Part shown: one piece after another, positions 335 through 22,908 of the stretch
Position numbering within the stretch: the first letter of the stretch is position 1
Layout: every line of letters begins with the position of its first letter
From: a virus
DNA length: 64,000 nt
Virus record (IMG/VR): IMGVR_UViG_3300017963_000239
Location: 17,880 to 81,879 of that record
Strand: one strand, 5' to 3'
Translations under genes and position numbers: made by a program
The notes under the pieces: model-generated
Databases searched by the model: none
The model's input: the letters and a program-made list of their open reading frames with translations, nothing else
Told to the model about the DNA's origin: nothing

Positions 335-378
335 GTGGTCGTAGCTCAATCGGTAGAGCGTCTGGATGTGGCCCAAAA
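335..378 (+). pseudogene. Severed 5' half of a tRNA-His
   Basis: Acceptor strand GTGGTCG, U8-A9, a perfect D-arm and the start of an anticodon arm reaching the GTG anticodon, then broken by an HNH gene. Its acceptor strand pairs at all seven positions with the orphan 3' fragment ending at 906, so both come from one interrupted tRNA-His gene. Confidence 0.7.
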
Positions 379-395
379 GTGTTAGGCTCACAACC

Positions 396-824
396 ATGCC
401 AGCGAAGACCAAGAAGTGTGGGAAGTGCCAGAAGCGCAAGCCTGTGGATCAGTTTTACTGGAAGGACAAGGCGCGGGGGACGAGGCATTCGTACTGCAGG
501 GCGTGTTTCGCCGCGCGCCACAAGACTTACTACCAGGAGAACAAGCAGTACTACTTGGAGAAGAAGGCGCGCTGCAAGCAGAGGCTCCGCGAGTATGTGA
601 ACGAACTGAAGCGCGCGCCGTGTACGGACTGTGGCCGGACGTACCCGCCCTACGTGATGGACTTTGATCACTTGAATGGGGAGGAGAAGGGGGGCCTCGT
701 GGCGCATTTGGTGGCGCAGGGGCAGGTTCGGAGAGCCAAAGAAGAGATAGCTAAGTGCGAGCTGGTATGCGCCAACTGTCACAGGATCAGAACGCACGAA
801 AGACGTATGGAGGTCGTAGCCTAA
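396..824 (+). CDS. HNH endonuclease inside a tRNA-His gene
   Basis: 142-residue treble-clef HNH protein. The N-terminus has CGKCQKRKP and CRAC zinc-ligand pairs; a basic helical stretch follows. The HNH core is CTDCG, then DFDHLNGEE with the catalytic FDH, then CELVCANCHRIRTHER. The start at 396 is preceded by TGTTAGGCT, an extended -10 seven bases upstream, which predicts a leaderless mRNA and is why I reject the upstream ATG at 366. The stop TAA lies within the D-arm of the following tRNA-His, so gene and tRNA share 16 bases. Role: DNA cleavage and homing into tRNA-His is inferred from context; the family assignment is strong. Confidence 0.85.
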   Translation: MPAKTKKCGKCQKRKPVDQFYWKDKARGTRHSYCRACFAARHKTYYQENKQYYLEKKARCKQRLREYVNELKRAPCTDCGRTYPPYVMDFDHLNGEEKGGLVAHLVAQGQVRRAKEEIAKCELVCANCHRIRTHERRMEVVA

Positions 825-881
825 CGGTTAAGGCACAGGATTGTGGCTCCTGGTATGCCGGTTCGATTCCGGTCGATCTCC
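809..881 (+). tRNA. tRNA-His (GTG), replacement copy
   Basis: Acceptor GAGGTCG/CGATCTC, anticodon stem CAGGA/TCCTG with loop TTGTGGC (GTG). It has the tRNA-His hallmark of an extra 5' G (809) facing C73 (881). The first 16 bases also encode the end of the HNH gene. Confidence 0.92.
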
Positions 882-883
882 CC

Positions 884-910
884 GGTGGTCGAGTCCGCTC
901 GGTCACCCCA
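884..910 (+). pseudogene. Severed 3' half of tRNA-His
   Basis: T-stem, a T-loop lacking one T (six bases, TCGAGT), acceptor CGGTCAC, discriminator C and encoded CCA. It pairs perfectly with the acceptor strand at 335-341. The shortened T-loop shows it has decayed. Confidence 0.65.
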
Positions 911-3018: not shown

Positions 3019-3085
3019 GGGCCAGTAGCTCAGTAGGTTAGAGCGTCCGCCTGATAAGCGGGAGGTCGTTTATTCTAACCTGGAC
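3019..3085 (+). pseudogene. Broken tRNA-Ile (GAT)
   Basis: Good acceptor 5' strand GGGCCAG, D-arm and complete anticodon arm (CCGC CTGATAA GCGG), then the T-arm degenerates (GTTTATTCTAACC) and no matching 3' acceptor strand follows. A complete tRNA-Ile with the same anticodon begins nine bases later. Confidence 0.65.
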
Positions 3086-3093
3086 AATTTCTT

Positions 3094-3165
3094 GGACTGC
3101 AATGCTCTGGTTGAGCTACGATGCCTGATAAGCATCGTGGCGGGGTCCAATTCCCCGGCGGTCCA
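3094..3165 (+). tRNA. tRNA-Ile (GAT)
   Basis: Acceptor GGACTGC/GCGGTCC (one G-T), anticodon stem GATGC/GCATC with loop CTGATAA (GAT). Unusual A at position 8 and T-loop TCCAATT. The HNH start codon lies three bases after the discriminator, so this tRNA and HNH form one unit. Confidence 0.8.
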
Positions 3166-3168
3166 CCG

Positions 3169-3744
3169 ATGAGCAAACAACGCAGGGATTCCCAGGGCCG
3201 TCTTCTTCTAGAATTTCGGTGTCCTTGTGGGAAGAGGTTCTGGGCACGCCCCAGACCTCCGAACAAGTCGGGGAAGCGGTATTGTAGCTTGGTGTGCTAC
3301 GGGAGGCTTAGGGACTTTTCTGGATCTAAAAACCCCAACTGGAGGGGAGGGTCGTTCCAGAGTGGCAAGGGTTACTGGTATGTTCATATGCCAGATCATC
3401 ACCGAGCGATGAAGAATGGCTACGTCAAGAGGGCGGATGTTGTAGCCGAGAAGAAGATCGGGAGGAAGTTGTTGCCTAACGAGGTGGTGCACCACGAAGA
3501 TTCAGATCCGAGCAACGACAGCCTAGACAACCTAGTGGTCAAGGACTCCCTAGCGCATATCAGAGAGCACGCAGTGAAGAGGCGAAAGCCTAAGAAGTCA
3601 AAGAAGGCTCGAAAGTCTGTTTGTTGGCCCTCCGATAGCGTGCTTTTGGAGATGGCTAAGACCATGACACAGCGCCAAATGGCAACGCTTCTTGGGTGCA
3701 GTCAGCCCGCCGTATTCTATCGCCTGCACCGTTCTCGTCGTTGA
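3169..3744 (+). CDS. HNH endonuclease following tRNA-Ile
   Basis: 191 residues. An N-terminal zinc module (CPCGKRFWARP, CSLVC) is followed by an HNH_3 core with EVVHHEDSDPSNDSLDNLVV (HH pair, asparagines, DNL) and a C-terminal helix-turn-helix-like MTQRQMATLLGCSQPAVFYRL. I start at 3169, directly after the tRNA-Ile 3' end; the in-frame ATG at 3121 is in the tRNA anticodon stem and cannot be used. It belongs to the same paralogous group as the HNH genes at 4208, 5699, 13192, 20134 and 22332. Here the replacement tRNA precedes the nuclease instead of following it. Confidence 0.82.
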   Translation: MSKQRRDSQGRLLLEFRCPCGKRFWARPRPPNKSGKRYCSLVCYGRLRDFSGSKNPNWRGGSFQSGKGYWYVHMPDHHRAMKNGYVKRADVVAEKKIGRKLLPNEVVHHEDSDPSNDSLDNLVVKDSLAHIREHAVKRRKPKKSKKARKSVCWPSDSVLLEMAKTMTQRQMATLLGCSQPAVFYRLHRSRR

Positions 3745-4161: not shown

Positions 4162-4200
4162 GGGCCTGTAGCTCAGCTGGGAGAGCGCTTCGTGCTACAC
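4162..4200 (+). pseudogene. Severed 5' half of a tRNA (probably Ala)
   Basis: GGGCCTG acceptor strand, U8-A9 and a perfect D-arm, nearly identical to the intact tRNA-Ala (CGC) at 5462, then interrupted in the anticodon stem. The acceptor pairs (two G-T) with the orphan 3' fragment ending at 4808. Confidence 0.65.
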
Positions 4201-4207
4201 TGGCAAA

Positions 4208-4699
4208 ATGCTGGAAGTGGTTGTGAGGTACGAGAAACCTGGAGATCCGTATGTCCGTGTTCGGCTGTCGGATGGCCGGGTCGTGCGTGAGCACAGGTTC
4301 ATCATGGAGTGCAAGCTAGGTCGGAAGCTCTCCCCTAGCGAGCACGTCCATCATAAGGACTTGAACCCCCGGAACAACGAGGAGAGCAACTTAGAATTGA
4401 AGTCGCGGGCGGATCACTGCCGCCTGCACCGCCCTGTGGCGCGGAAGGTTAGACTGCGCTGTCCTACTTGCGGGTGTTGTTTCGAACGCACTGCCAGGTA
4501 TGTCAGGTCCAAGAAGAAGCTAGGCCAGCACAGTTTCTTCTGCGGTCGTAGCTGCCGGGGACCTAGGGGCGGAGAAACAACACGAAAGGTCACCGCGCAT
4601 GGGTCTCGCGGAGGCTATTTGAGGGGCTGTCGGTGTGCTGAGTGTCGAGAGGCGCAGGCGCACTACATGCGCGAGTACAGATCAAAGGGGCTGTGGTGA
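4208..4699 (+). CDS. HNH endonuclease inside a tRNA-Ala gene
   Basis: 163 residues in three modules: HNH_3 core (EHVHHKDLNPRNNEESNLEL), a zinc finger (CPTCGCCFER ... FFCGRSC) and a C-terminal module HGSRGGYLRGCRCAEC shared with the HNH proteins at 13192, 20134 and 22332. TACACT lies six bases before the ATG, a leaderless -10. The last codons GGG-CTG-TGG and the TGA stop are the first bases of the downstream tRNA-Ala, so the nuclease ends where the replacement tRNA begins. Homing at tRNA-Ala is inferred from position. Confidence 0.85.
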   Translation: MLEVVVRYEKPGDPYVRVRLSDGRVVREHRFIMECKLGRKLSPSEHVHHKDLNPRNNEESNLELKSRADHCRLHRPVARKVRLRCPTCGCCFERTARYVRSKKKLGQHSFFCGRSCRGPRGGETTRKVTAHGSRGGYLRGCRCAECREAQAHYMREYRSKGLW

Positions 4700-4757
4700 A
4701 AGGGGATCACGCAACCATGGCATGGTTGTATTACGGGTTCGAATCCCGTCAGCTCCA
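4687..4757 (+). tRNA. tRNA-Ala (GGC), replacement copy
   Basis: Acceptor GGGGCTG/CAGCTCC, D-arm GTGA/TCAC, anticodon stem CAACC/GGTTG with loop ATGGCAT (GGC), T-loop TTCGAAT. Its first 13 bases encode the end of the HNH gene. Confidence 0.87.
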
Positions 4758-4770
4758 CTAGGGACCTTCC

Positions 4771-4812
4771 GGTCGGCGGGGGTCGGGGGTTCGAGTCCCC
4801 CTAGGTCCACCA
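4771..4812 (+). pseudogene. Severed 3' half of a tRNA
   Basis: Variable loop, perfect T-arm (GGGGG TTCGAGT CCCCC), acceptor TAGGTCC, discriminator A and encoded CCA, but no 5' half beside it. It pairs with the acceptor strand at 4162-4168. Confidence 0.65.
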
Positions 4813-5630: not shown

Positions 5631-5672
5631 GGGCTCATAGCTCAGATGGGAGAGCGCGGCATATTGCAACTG
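5631..5672 (+). pseudogene. Severed 5' half of tRNA-Ala (TGC)
   Basis: GGGCTCA acceptor strand, perfect D-arm and a partial anticodon arm reaching TTGCAA, then interrupted. All seven acceptor bases pair with the 3' fragment TGAGTCC at 6286-6292. Confidence 0.7.
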
Positions 5673-5698: not shown

Positions 5699-6088
5699 AT
5701 GGGGTACAAGTTCGTTAAGGCTCCCTCTAGCTATCCGGGCAGAACGTATCGCTGGGGCAACCGAGTTCTGGAGCACCACTTGGTATGGTGGGAGAACACA
5801 GGACAGGTCGTTCCGGAAGGGTACGTTGTTCACCATCTGAATGAAGACAAGGAGGACAATCGTTTCGGGAACCTCGCGCTGAAGAAGCGTGGGGAGCACA
5901 CAACGGATCACCAATTGAAGGATCCGCCTGTGGCGTTGGTGTGCTCTTGGTGCGGGAAGAAGATCGAACGTAGCTCTAGAGATGTTCGAAGCAAACGCAA
6001 GCAAGGGCAGAGTCGTTTCTTCTGTTGTTCCGCTCACGCAGCCGCTGCGGGTTGGTCGAGCAGAAGAGCGAGAGGGGTCATCGTCTAA
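5699..6088 (+). CDS. HNH endonuclease inside tRNA-Ala (TGC)
   Basis: 129 residues with an HNH_3 core (YVVHHLNEDKEDNRFGNLAL) and a zinc finger (CSWCGKKIERSSRD ... FFCCSAH). Compared with its paralogues at 4208, 13192 and 22332 it lacks the C-terminal CRCxxC module; the frame is cut short by the TAA in the D-loop of the overlapping tRNA-Ala. TACTGT lies six bases before the ATG as a leaderless -10 (extended form TGATACTGT). Confidence 0.84.
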   Translation: MGYKFVKAPSSYPGRTYRWGNRVLEHHLVWWENTGQVVPEGYVVHHLNEDKEDNRFGNLALKKRGEHTTDHQLKDPPVALVCSWCGKKIERSSRDVRSKRKQGQSRFFCCSAHAAAAGWSSRRARGVIV

Positions 6089-6145
6089 TCGGGAGGACGC
6101 TAGCCTTGCACGCTGGTAATACGGGTTCGAGTCCCGTTGGCTCCA
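6074..6145 (+). tRNA. tRNA-Ala (TGC), replacement copy
   Basis: Acceptor GGGGTCA/TGGCTCC, anticodon stem CTAGC/GCTGG with loop CTTGCAC (TGC), T-loop TTCGAGT. The first 15 bases encode the end of the HNH gene. Confidence 0.87.
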
Positions 6146-6244
6146 CTGCGGCAACGTGTGGTCGTCCGCAGGGCTTGACCCGTCCCTGCTAAGTGATCAC
6201 GCAAGATCCCTAACGGGTCGCACAAAGCCGGAAGGCGTGGGGAC

Positions 6245-6296
6245 GCCGCGCCTTGCAAGCCTGAGGTCGGGAGTTCGATCCTCCCTGAGTCCACCA
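6245..6296 (+). pseudogene. Severed 3' half of tRNA-Ala (TGC)
   Basis: Anticodon loop CTTGCAA, variable loop, perfect T-arm (GGGAG TTCGATC CTCCC), acceptor TGAGTCC, discriminator A and encoded CCA. There is no 5' acceptor strand beside it; the partner lies at 5631-5637. Confidence 0.7.
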
Positions 6297-10119: not shown

Positions 10120-10193
10120 TGGTGGGCAGGGGAGGACTTGAACCTCCAACCCTTCCGGTTATACCGGATGCTCTGAACTTGAGCTACCTGCCC
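10120..10193 (-). tRNA. tRNA-like RNA, loop GTATAAC
   Basis: Acceptor GGGCAGG/CCTGCCC, good D- and T-arms, encoded CCA. The anticodon arm is TCCG-GTATAAC-CGGA with an A-A mismatch at 27-43, giving a formal anticodon ATA, or a five-base loop TATAA with a five-pair stem. Confidence 0.6.
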
Positions 10194-10198
10194 GTGGG

Positions 10199-10273
10199 TG
10201 GGAACAGCAAGGTTCGAACTTGCGGCCTCGAAGGGCATTACTCTTCGTGCTCTGCCAACTGAGCTATGTTCCC
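10199..10273 (-). tRNA. tRNA-like RNA with nine-base anticodon loop
   Basis: Acceptor GGGAACA/TGTTCCC, canonical D-arm and T-arm. Anticodon stem CGAAG/CTTCG closes a nine-base loop AGTAATGCC, nearly the same as the loop of the neighbour at 10049. Confidence 0.6.
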
Positions 10274-10277
10274 TAGG

Positions 10278-10378
10278 TCCACCAGGGAGGGGTTGAACCT
10301 CCGCGATTCCGGACTCGCTTACGTGGTCCAGGCCGCCCCAGCTCGCCGCGTCCGGCGAAGCTGGGTCCTGTCTGGTGG
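10278..10378 (-). tRNA. tRNA-like RNA with long hairpin in place of D-arm
   Basis: 101 bases. Acceptor CCACCAG/CTGGTGG and T-arm GGAGG TTCAACC CCTCC are perfect. In the D-arm position is an 11-pair hairpin (CCCAGC...GCTGGG and TCGCC/GGCGA); the anticodon stem CTGGAC/GTCCGG closes an 11-base loop. Confidence 0.5.
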
Positions 10379-10383
10379 ATTGG

Positions 10384-10468
10384 CGCGCGGGGGAGGACTT
10401 GAACACTCCGACCTTCGGTTCGTTGATCCTGCCAACGCTCCGACGCTCTACCACTGAGCTACCCGCGC
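10384..10468 (-). tRNA. tRNA-like RNA with extended anticodon arm
   Basis: Acceptor GCGCGGG/CCCGCGC and canonical D-arm. The anticodon stem TCGG/CCGA continues through an internal loop into a second stem CGTTG/CAACG with loop GCAGGAT. The T-arm has an extra base. Confidence 0.5.
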
Positions 10469-10568
10469 TCGGTCGGCGCGGAAGGCCCGAAGCCTTCGCT
10501 GCACCGCCCTTTCCCCCAGGTACTTGTGCACAGTTGCCTGGGGTCCGGAGACGGCTTCTGTGCGCCGG

Positions 10569-10651
10569 CACGCGGGGAAGGACTCGAACCTCGGACCTTC
10601 GGGAGTGCGCTACGGCAGTACCCGATGCTCTGGCCGCTGAGCTACCCGCGT
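10569..10651 (-). tRNA. tRNA-like RNA with 17-base anticodon loop
   Basis: Acceptor ACGCGGG/CCCGCGT, canonical D-arm, anticodon stem TCGGG/CCCGA closing a 17-base loop, T-loop TTCGAGT with one T-stem mismatch. It is the most upstream member of the minus-strand cluster. Confidence 0.5.
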
Positions 10652-13191: not shown

Positions 13192-13710
13192 GTGGGCAAC
13201 GAGGTGAAGAGATGGGGGCCGTATCTGCACAAGCAGACGGGGTATCTGTACTACACGGTCAAGTTCGCTTCGGGTCGTGTTCGAAAGGTACAGGCGCACC
13301 GTGAGGTGATGGAGAAGCATTTGGGGCGGCGGTTGCGACGGAACGAGGTGGTTCACCACGAGAACGAGGACAAGACGGACAACCGTGTGGCCAACCTGAA
13401 GGTTCTCACGAGATCGAGGCATGCTGTGGAGCACGCTAAGGATCGAACTACCACCTTCGTGTCACTCACCTGTGCTTGCTGCGGCAAATCTTTCCAGCGC
13501 CGCAAGGGCCAGGAGCCGGAGCCGAAGGGCTACCAACAGGCATTCTGTGGCCGCCGGTGTGCAGGCAAGATCAACGGTCCCAAGGGAGGGGGAAGGAGCA
13601 ACGAGGAATTTTGCCACGGGACTCCTTCGGCGTACTCCTACCGAGGGTGTCGTTGCTCTGTGTGTCGCGCGGCGCATGCTGAGCGACTTCGGAAGTATCG
13701 CTCCCCGTAG
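13192..13710 (+). CDS. HNH endonuclease linked to tRNA-Arg (CCG)
   Basis: 172 residues in the three-module form: HNH_3 core (NEVVHHENEDKTDNRVANLKVL), zinc finger (CACCGKSFQRRKG ... FCGRRC) and C-terminal HGTPSAYSYRGCRCSVC. GTG start, with TGCTAGCTC seven bases upstream as extended -10 (leaderless). The stop TAG is exactly U8-A9-G10 of the downstream tRNA-Arg. Same layout as the tRNA-His and tRNA-Ala cases but without a separate old 3' half. Confidence 0.85.
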   Translation: MGNEVKRWGPYLHKQTGYLYYTVKFASGRVRKVQAHREVMEKHLGRRLRRNEVVHHENEDKTDNRVANLKVLTRSRHAVEHAKDRTTTFVSLTCACCGKSFQRRKGQEPEPKGYQQAFCGRRCAGKINGPKGGGRSNEEFCHGTPSAYSYRGCRCSVCRAAHAERLRKYRSP

Positions 13711-13773
13711 TCCAGCGGATAAGACGCACGGCTCCGGACCGTGAGATCGCTGGTTCGAATCCAGCCGGGGAGG
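13701..13773 (+). tRNA. tRNA-Arg (CCG)
   Basis: Acceptor CTCCCCG/CGGGGAG, anticodon stem CACGG/CCGTG with loop CTCCGGA (CCG), T-loop TTCGAAT. Its first ten bases encode the HNH C-terminus and stop. Confidence 0.92.
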
Positions 13774-13777
13774 CTAG

Positions 13778-22275: not shown

Positions 22276-22316
22276 CGGGATGTGGCCTAGTCTGGTTAAG
22301 GCGCCAAGCTTTTGCT
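22276..22316 (+). pseudogene. Severed 5' half of a tRNA (Pro- or Gln-like)
   Basis: CGGGATG acceptor strand, Leu/Gln-like D-arm and an anticodon arm start CAAGCTTTTG, then interrupted. The acceptor pairs perfectly (7 of 7) with CATCCCG, the 3' strand of the tRNA-Pro after the HNH gene, so that 3' half may be the original. Confidence 0.55.
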
Positions 22317-22331
22317 AGGCTAGGCTACATC

Positions 22332-22841
22332 ATGTGGAAGCTGCGGGGTCGGAAGCGGGAGAGTAAAGGGCTGTCAGGGTACGAAACAGTCTGTCTTCCG
22401 GAGCACCCGAAGGCGGACGGTCGTGGTCGTGTGTATCTCCATAGGGTTCTGATGGAGAACCACTTAGGGCGCGTGTTAGGGGAAGATGAAGTTGTCCATC
22501 ACAAGAATGGTGACCCCCGAGACAATAGGATCAAAAATTTGGAGATCCTATCGAGAGTGGACCATGCCGCGTTCCACGGGAAAGCCCGACGCGGTCGGGT
22601 CGAAGAGTGCGAGTGCGCGAATTGTGGGACTCGGTTTGAGCGCCTTCGGAGGAAGCTTCAGGGGCAGCGAACCTTTTGCAGTAGGCGCTGTGTGATGCTT
22701 TTCTACAAGCCCCGGCCGCCTCGTACACCGAGGGTCGTAGAGCACGGCACGAACTCCATGTACAAGAACCACGGCTGTCGCTGTTTTGACTGCCGCCGTG
22801 CTCATGCCGAGGCCATGAAGTCGTACAGAAACGGGGTGTAG
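22332..22841 (+). CDS. HNH endonuclease linked to tRNA-Pro (GGG)
   Basis: 169 residues, three-module form: HNH_3 core (DEVVHHKNGDPRDNRIKNLEIL), zinc finger (CANCGTRFERLRRK ... TFCSRRC) and HGTNSMYKNHGCRCFDC at the C-terminus. TAGGCT repeats just upstream of the ATG give a leaderless -10. The stop TAG is U8-A9-G10 of tRNA-Pro and the last codons AAC-GGG-GTG contain its acceptor strand. Confidence 0.85.
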   Translation: MWKLRGRKRESKGLSGYETVCLPEHPKADGRGRVYLHRVLMENHLGRVLGEDEVVHHKNGDPRDNRIKNLEILSRVDHAAFHGKARRGRVEECECANCGTRFERLRRKLQGQRTFCSRRCVMLFYKPRPPRTPRVVEHGTNSMYKNHGCRCFDCRRAHAEAMKSYRNGV

Positions 22842-22908
22842 TTCAGCTTGGAAGAACGCCGCGCTGGGGGCGCGGAGGCCGGAGGTTCAAATCCTCTCAT
22901 CCCGACCA
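22832..22908 (+). tRNA. tRNA-Pro (GGG)
   Basis: Acceptor CGGGGTG/CATCCCG, anticodon stem CCGCG/CGCGG with loop CTGGGGG (GGG), T-loop TTCAAAT, CCA encoded; the A of CCA starts the next ATG. Confidence 0.9.

Follow-up and report, generated by a model that had tools for sequence, protein, structure and literature searches.

Probable HNH homing cassettes of viral tRNA genes that carry their own tRNA repair piece

Mobile endonuclease genes that regenerate the gene they enter have been described in fungal mitochondria. In Allomyces (atp6) and Glomus (atp6, atp9, cox2 and nad3), mobile endonuclease ORFs bring in a foreign C-terminus that rebuilds the host gene, and the native part is displaced downstream (PMC3630166). 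This combination of an endonuclease gene, a carried gene part that rebuilds the target and a displaced native part is the closest in principle to the arrangement reported here. The fungal elements, however, have protein-coding mitochondrial targets, employ LAGLIDADG or GIY-YIG nucleases and replace the 3' end only, whereas the cassettes considered in this study involve tRNA genes of phages and bacteria, encode an HNH nuclease and supply a 5' half, a 3' half or the whole gene. SegB of T-even phages is a free-standing homing endonuclease tied to a tRNA array, with cleavage sites within tRNA genes (PMC13096335; Brok-Volchanskaya 2008), and its motif RAWTSGAAC reads as the complement of the T-loop. 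It is a GIY-YIG nuclease, its gene is located beside and not inside a broken tRNA, and no carried repair tRNA has been described for it; the cassette nucleases, in contrast, match HNH families only in Pfam and PHROG, with no GIY-YIG domain.

For cluster M mycobacteriophages, one study is cited as implicating HNH endonucleases in the diversity of the tRNA repertoire (Pope et al. 2014, J Virol 88:2461). Group I introns and HNH homing into tRNA anticodon loops share the target region with the present cassettes, but the latter contain no intron RNA, and function would be kept by a replacement tRNA and not by splicing. The engineered home-and-rescue gene drive HomeR is described as cutting an essential gene and carrying a cut-resistant version of it (PMC7968924); the logic is the same, but HomeR is a synthetic CRISPR system while the HNH cassettes are apparently natural and nuclease-specific. 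No earlier description of tRNA-rebuilding HNH cassettes was found in the literature searched, most subscription papers being outside its scope. Gene-regenerating endonuclease elements are already known from fungal mitochondria, and the tRNA-gene version with an HNH nuclease apparently represents a new variant. We consider it likely that the locus described below is a cassette built around a free-standing HNH homing endonuclease, a cassette that specialises in tRNA genes and brings its own tRNA repair piece.

The window analysed here is a stretch of 64,000 nucleotides comprising bases 17,880-81,879 of the 81,879-base IMG/VR virus record IMGVR_UViG_3300017963_000239, and all positions below refer to it. 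The record contains about 50 tRNA genes, one tmRNA and an EF-Tu gene (994-2151), and the His cassette is situated between a tRNA-Asp (258-333) and this EF-Tu gene. Its parts were checked with ARAGORN, Infernal and direct reading (Table 1). An earlier note, made from the letters of the DNA, had described a four-part layout at this place, and the layout stands with corrected limits, the 5' half covering 335-377 (not 335-378) and the 3' remnant 888-910 (not 884-910); its description of an HNH gene at 396-824 that is overlapped at the end by a complete tRNA-His at 809-881 is confirmed.

Table 1. Parts of the His cassette and of related cassettes in the window.
Feature	Position	Strand	Basis
Orphan tRNA-His 5' half (acceptor GTGGTCG, D-arm, anticodon arm with GTG)	335..377	+	Direct reading; weak Infernal tRNA match 335-398
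Imperfect inverted repeat of the anticodon-loop sequence, left end of His cassette (TGTGGCC 367-373 / GGCTCACA 385-392, one bulged base)	367..392	+	Coordinates; comparable repeats in other cassettes
HNH endonuclease gene, 142 aa; frame open from ATG 366, stop TAA inside next tRNA	396..824	+	PHROG 2255 HNH endonuclease, E=5e-32; motifs
Complete tRNA-His (GTG), putative replacement; G-1 at 809	809..881	+	ARAGORN 810-883; Rfam 810-881, 62 bits
Orphan tRNA-His 3' remnant (T-loop, T-stem 3' strand, acceptor CGGTCAC, C73, CCA)	888..910	+	Sole 7/7 acceptor partner of orphan 5' half in 64 kb
Cassette 2, orphan tRNA-Ala 5' half (GGGCCTG...)	4162..4192	+	
Cassette 2, HNH gene (HNH_3 family), end 13 nt inside tRNA-Ala	4208..4699	+	Pfam HNH_3
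Cassette 2, complete tRNA-Ala (GGC)	4687..4758	+	ARAGORN
Cassette 2, orphan tRNA-Ala 3' half (T-arm, TAGGTCC, ACCA), 7/7 with orphan 5' half	4781..4812	+	
Cassette 3, orphan tRNA-Ala 5' half (GGGCTCA..., anticodon TGC)	5631..5669	+	
Cassette 3, HNH gene, end 15 nt inside tRNA-Ala	5699..6088	+	Pfam HNH_3, E=9e-12
Cassette 3, complete tRNA-Ala (TGC)	6074..6146	+	ARAGORN
Cassette 3, orphan tRNA-Ala 3' half (TGAGTCC, ACCA), sole matching 3' end in window	6251..6296	+	
HNH gene 13192-13710, end 10 nt inside tRNA-Arg CCG (13701-13774); degenerate tRNA 5' half just upstream	13192..13774	+	
Half-replacement cassette, orphan tRNA-Pro 5' half (CGGGATG...)	22276..22308	+	7/7 with 3' strand CATCCCG of downstream tRNA-Pro
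Half-replacement cassette, HNH gene, end 10 nt inside tRNA-Pro	22332..22841	+	PHROG
tRNA-Pro (GGG): 5' half fused to HNH end, 3' half fits orphan 5' half better	22832..22908	+	

The GTG anticodon of the orphan 5' half is placed within the loop ATGTGGC (366-372). The stretch that follows is degenerate, and Infernal reads 335-398 as a poor whole tRNA (24.7 bits; cut-off 29). Separately, a sub-threshold Rfam match to YrlA, a Y RNA-like family, spans 293-372 (31 bits against a cut-off of 69), covering the 3' part of tRNA-Asp together with the orphan 5' half, and probably reflects tRNA resemblance.

The HNH gene has its own start and its own stop, and the motifs PCxDCG, DFDH and KCELVCANCH are conserved, as are the catalytic and zinc residues. 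An intact endonuclease domain, as looked for in a homing endonuclease gene, is indicated by matches to PHROG HNH families with E-values down to 5e-32; Pfam is nearly blind to this protein, which PHROGs detects, and a search of the PDB gave one weak HNH match (E=0.07). The last codons of the gene double as the first 16 nt of the complete tRNA-His, which possesses both G-1 and, at 881, the discriminator C73, the hallmarks of tRNA-His.

The two outer acceptor strands, GTGGTCG and CGGTCAC, pair at 7/7 positions, two of them as G-U; the perfect pairing claimed in the earlier note thus holds in the sense that every position is paired and not in the sense that every pair is Watson-Crick. A T-loop followed by a CCA 3' end with 7/7 acceptor pairing to GTGGTCG occurs exactly once in 64 kb, at 888 just after the cassette, and not at all in 20 shuffles of the 82-kb record. 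Only 888-910 is clearly tRNA-derived in the 3' remnant, which is devoid of a variable loop and of the 5' strand of the T-stem, and because these are missing the joined His halves are unable to fold as a tRNA today. The stretch 884-907 folds on itself as a 10-bp hairpin, since GGTGGTCG precedes the T-loop. The remnant could equally be an internally deleted tRNA-His and not a clean 3' half. The expectation that the outer halves join into an intact tRNA is therefore not borne out for His; it is borne out in the viral contig L044, where the joined halves give a clean tRNA-Arg(ACG), which may be read as a sign of recent insertion.

A search of 250-1000 at E<=1 matched neither group I nor any other intron family, in agreement with the earlier view that no intron-sized RNA is present at this cassette. 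This result bears on a different explanation of the locus, that the outer halves are joined as RNA, by intron-like excision or by trans-ligation, to yield a second tRNA-His. Splicing is unlikely, since no intron family was found and the His remnant is too short to make a tRNA. The still-pairing acceptor strands and the perfect fold of the L044 halves would suit such a split tRNA, as would the RNA ligases encoded near the array in some tRNA-rich phages (A3Wally, Blueeyedbeauty and Bongo); the present record, itself a fragment, has no RtcB or RNA_ligase match, however, and a complete tRNA of the same anticodon is always present. We regard a split tRNA as very improbable.

The His cassette is not unique but one of a large family, some members of which supply only half a tRNA. 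In the 82-kb record, eleven HNH ORFs were detected near tRNAs by similarity, eight of which end inside the 5' part of a tRNA, and the full four-part layout was observed at two sites besides His, Ala-GGC and Ala-TGC (cassettes 2 and 3 of Table 1). The tRNA-Pro(GGG) locus differs from these. The 3' end of this tRNA forms seven Watson-Crick pairs out of seven with the orphan CGGGATG, while its own HNH-fused 5' strand needs a G-U pair, a pattern that would be expected had a new 5' half arrived with the HNH gene while the resident 3' half was kept. At many HNH-tRNA pairs, such as Tyr and Lys in this record, orphan halves were undetectable, which counts against the cassette model.

Two further loci of the window may be mentioned. 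At 3019-3744, a degenerate tRNA-Ile (3019-3087, 36 bits) is followed by a full, diverged tRNA-Ile(GAT) (3094-3167) and then by an HNH gene, an order that resembles mirror-type cassettes in which the HNH gene comes after the tRNA. At 10120-10651, the minus strand encodes a few clustered tRNAs whose anticodons are unusual (Tyr ATA, Ile AAT and one unassigned), the rest of the array being on the plus strand.

Five other viral contigs contain seven more four-part cassettes, which brings the total to ten in six contigs: Met-CAT (L011), Asn-GTT and Arg-TCT (L015), Arg-ACG (L044), Leu-CAA and Val-TAC (L097) and Cys-GCA (L181). In all ten, which were partly found by eye, the broken tRNA agrees in anticodon with the carried one. 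At loci for which a script located both orphan halves, acceptor pairing of at least 6/7 was seen in 5 of 6 own combinations as against 2 of 207 swapped ones. Two other scans discriminated less: joined halves gave some ARAGORN match at a relaxed threshold in 28/54 real and 115/257 swapped pairs, and 5' halves sought by D-arm shape and anticodon numbered 20 against 12 by chance, which is weakly above chance. HNH searches of viral contigs provided 223 distinct HNH ORFs, 101 of them with a tRNA downstream in the stretch examined. The HNH stop falls inside that tRNA in 40 of the 101 cases, with overlaps peaking at exactly 10 nt and 15 nt; an overlap of 10 nt places the HNH stop codon TAG on tRNA positions 8-10. 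Small non-HNH ORFs also sometimes end inside tRNAs (StarPlatinum), an observation that counts against the cassette model.

Close relatives among cultured phages show presence/absence polymorphism at fixed sites in five comparisons, so that occupied and empty alleles are available ready-made in culturable Streptomyces and Mycobacterium phages. At tRNA-Gly(TCC), where EGole and Samisti12 have the empty allele, Tribute and EGole have near-identical flanks, and Tribute has an insert of ~500 bp comprising a scrap of the old anticodon loop (ACTTCCAATCA), an HNH gene and a new tRNA 5' half with anticodon arm, to which the T-arm and acceptor of the resident tRNA connect; the anticodon stem is CTATC/GTTAG in Tribute and GTCTGA/TCAGAC in EGole. 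TunaTartare and Faust, again with nearly identical flanks, differ at tRNA-Arg(ACG), where the resident 5' half is in place and is followed by a new 3' half, the HNH gene and the displaced resident 3' half. The same mirror order, new 3' half, HNH gene and displaced resident 3' half, distinguishes Elmer from Starbow at tRNA-Phe. In PumpkinSpice, as compared with Genie2 and IchabodCrane, the whole tRNA-Pro is replaced and the sequences rejoin at the tRNA 3' end. PegLeg and Bongo differ at tRNA-Met and tRNA-Glu by an HNH gene that overlaps a different copy of the tRNA, by 10 nt at Met and 15 nt at Glu, and both HNH genes are absent in Bongo. A carried part that rebuilds the target, with the native part displaced, is seen in TunaTartare/Faust and Elmer/Starbow as well as at His, Ala-GGC and Ala-TGC of the window. 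As read from these alleles, each insert is located within or beside a tRNA gene and restores it, supplying either one new half (5' or 3') or the entire tRNA.

For the His locus itself, INPHARED holds no near-identical phage of the window, and a pattern scan of viral contigs found no intact homologue of the broken tRNA-His. In the EF-Tu neighbourhood of 21 related viral contigs, tRNA-Asp adjoins EF-Tu in several (L062, L064, L067 and L069), and in none does a tRNA-His occupy the position it has in the window. The prediction that relatives without the cassette would be found is thus borne out at other tRNA loci, with the tRNA rebuilt from carried sequence, and not at this one. The broader claim, that an HNH cassette is inserted in a tRNA gene near the anticodon together with a diverged replacement tRNA, gains support from the occupied and empty relatives at those other loci and from the ten four-part cassettes.

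The main competing explanation is passive hitch-hiking, in which HNH genes land between the tRNAs of an array and unequal recombination between tRNAs of the same isotype produces the halves and duplicates, with no targeting by the nuclease. Phage tRNA arrays are dense and recombinogenic, T-arm and D-arm sequences are common to tRNAs, and the PegLeg and PumpkinSpice loci do resemble tRNA swaps. In Tribute/EGole and TunaTartare/Faust, however, the flanks are nearly identical, the insert is at the tRNA gene and the tRNA is rebuilt. Passive landing also fits poorly with the shared anticodon of the broken and carried tRNAs in 10/10 four-part cassettes, with the fixed position of HNH stops relative to the tRNA and with the presence of the HNH family on bacterial chromosomes, directly against solitary tRNA genes outside any array. 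Hitch-hiking is accordingly judged unlikely, if less so than the other alternatives.

The content of the inserts also bears on an integrase-type element, which would use a tRNA gene as attachment site and restore it afterwards in the manner of genomic islands. The outcome would be the same, with the tRNA rebuilt from element-borne sequence and a displaced fragment at the other end. The inserts, however, are ~0.4-0.6 kb long and consist only of an HNH gene and tRNA sequence, with no recombinase and no attachment-site repeats seen, and insertion is observed inside the anticodon arm, the T-arm or the whole gene and not at a fixed 3' att core. Such an element is unlikely since no integrase is present in the insert, and we hold it to be the least probable of the explanations considered.

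On the homing reading, the HNH protein would cut a still intact tRNA gene belonging to one anticodon family, within the anticodon arm or close to it, and repair of the break would copy in the cassette of a donor, either co-infecting or resident. The next step is seen in the alleles compared: the resident tRNA is interrupted or replaced by the HNH gene together with a carried segment, which is a 5' half, a 3' half or a full tRNA with the same anticodon. A diverged but intact gene for a tRNA of that anticodon remains, as is apparent at the sequence level, while the displaced halves stay as orphans and decay. The carried tRNA would be different enough, through its anticodon-stem sequence (as in Tribute against EGole), to escape cutting. 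At the His locus, a tRNA-His gene between tRNA-Asp and the EF-Tu gene would have been the target and 809-881 the replacement. We infer that the HNH protein cuts DNA, that the cassette spreads when the break is repaired and that the carried tRNA resists cutting.

An anticodon-proximal insertion with a diverged tRNA copy would also fit an anticodon nuclease, that is, an HNH protein acting on tRNA and not on DNA, the carried tRNA being a resistant copy; phages do carry tRNAs against tRNA-cutting defences. This reading leaves unexplained why the gene is placed inside the DNA of the broken tRNA, and the families matched in PHROG, HNH and endonuclease VII, are generally regarded as DNA endonucleases. 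We give it little credence, about as much as the split tRNA.

Sequences upstream of the HNH genes provide a further link to the anticodon loop. The exact 7-nt anticodon loop of the downstream tRNA recurs upstream of the HNH gene in 10 of 58 phage cases, where 0.65 are expected (p=1e-9), and in five of these ten the reverse complement is next, immediately ahead of the HNH start, at a start-to-start distance of 19-21 nt. An inverted copy of the anticodon loop before the HNH start codon was noted at the left ends of cassettes in L097 (HNH 3966), L101, L105, L108, L262, L258 and L266, as well as at 367-392 of the window. It could be an operator, an mRNA hairpin or a mimic of the target. For HNH genes located after a tRNA in L257 (EGole), L271 (Blueeyedbeauty), L272 (Bartholomune) and L268 (Cursive), the upstream inverted repeat is T-loop-like (GGTTCGAA or GGTTCAAA) and does not resemble the anticodon loop, which suggests relatives that may target the T-arm.

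Members of the same HNH family were also detected in GTDB genomes, and of 82 such genes 43 lie directly against a tRNA on their downstream side. This tRNA is chiefly Arg-UCG, the partner in CPR as well as other bacteria, or Pro-UGG, the partner in Chloroflexi and Actinobacteria. The anticodon loop is repeated upstream of the HNH gene in 8 of these 43 (0.65 expected; p=2e-7), and recognisable orphan 5' halves are kept in L344 and L333. In the Beckwithbacteria (CPR) chromosome, of which 1.00 of 1.05 Mb was searched, the 47 tRNAs found include no UCG copy other than the HNH-linked tRNA-Arg(UCG), so the rebuilt tRNA must work. The HNH group on chromosomal tRNA-Arg(UCG) extends over CPR, Nitrospirae, Planctomycetota and others (L281, L283-L285, L287, L296, L298, L302, L304, L306, L308, L309, L312, L329, L333, L336, L344 and L345).

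Most of the HNH proteins linked to Arg-UCG and to Pro-UGG group into clades in the tree, and the tRNA label changes 42 times over all sequences against 56 when shuffled, a significant difference; among phage sequences alone, with 28 changes against 29.3 shuffled, there is no signal relating HNH phylogeny to anticodon, which counts against the cassette model.

Taken jointly, the phage and bacterial data incline us, by a modest degree, towards widespread natural home-and-rescue selfish elements that specialise in tRNA genes, both of phages and of bacterial chromosomes (the single-copy tRNAs of CPR among them), and each lineage of which would cut one kind of tRNA gene and rebuild it from a carried half or whole. 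They would be a main source of the growth of tRNA arrays and of aberrant phage tRNAs, and may use the inverted anticodon-loop copy as an operator upstream of the HNH gene. If this is true, the cassettes would form, as a recurrent class, a natural counterpart of engineered home-and-rescue gene drives, and would give a selfish-element explanation for HNH-rich phage tRNA arrays and their duplicate and odd tRNAs, and also for foreign halves in tRNA genes of bacterial chromosomes. They would likewise represent an intron-free way for a homing nuclease to occupy an essential RNA gene.

Adjacent to the His cassette, a conserved structured leader was observed upstream of the phage EF-Tu gene, at 915-996 of the window and in L062, L063, L064, L065, L066, L067 and L069. 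It has no Rfam match and consists of a bulged hairpin GCCCCTGGAGYCGGATRGTCCGRCGGGGY, a purine-rich spacer and a short GGGCTGGCAACCC hairpin, after which the start codon follows. RNAalifold predicts 14 pairs, six of them with changes on both sides, and the element is possibly a regulatory leader.
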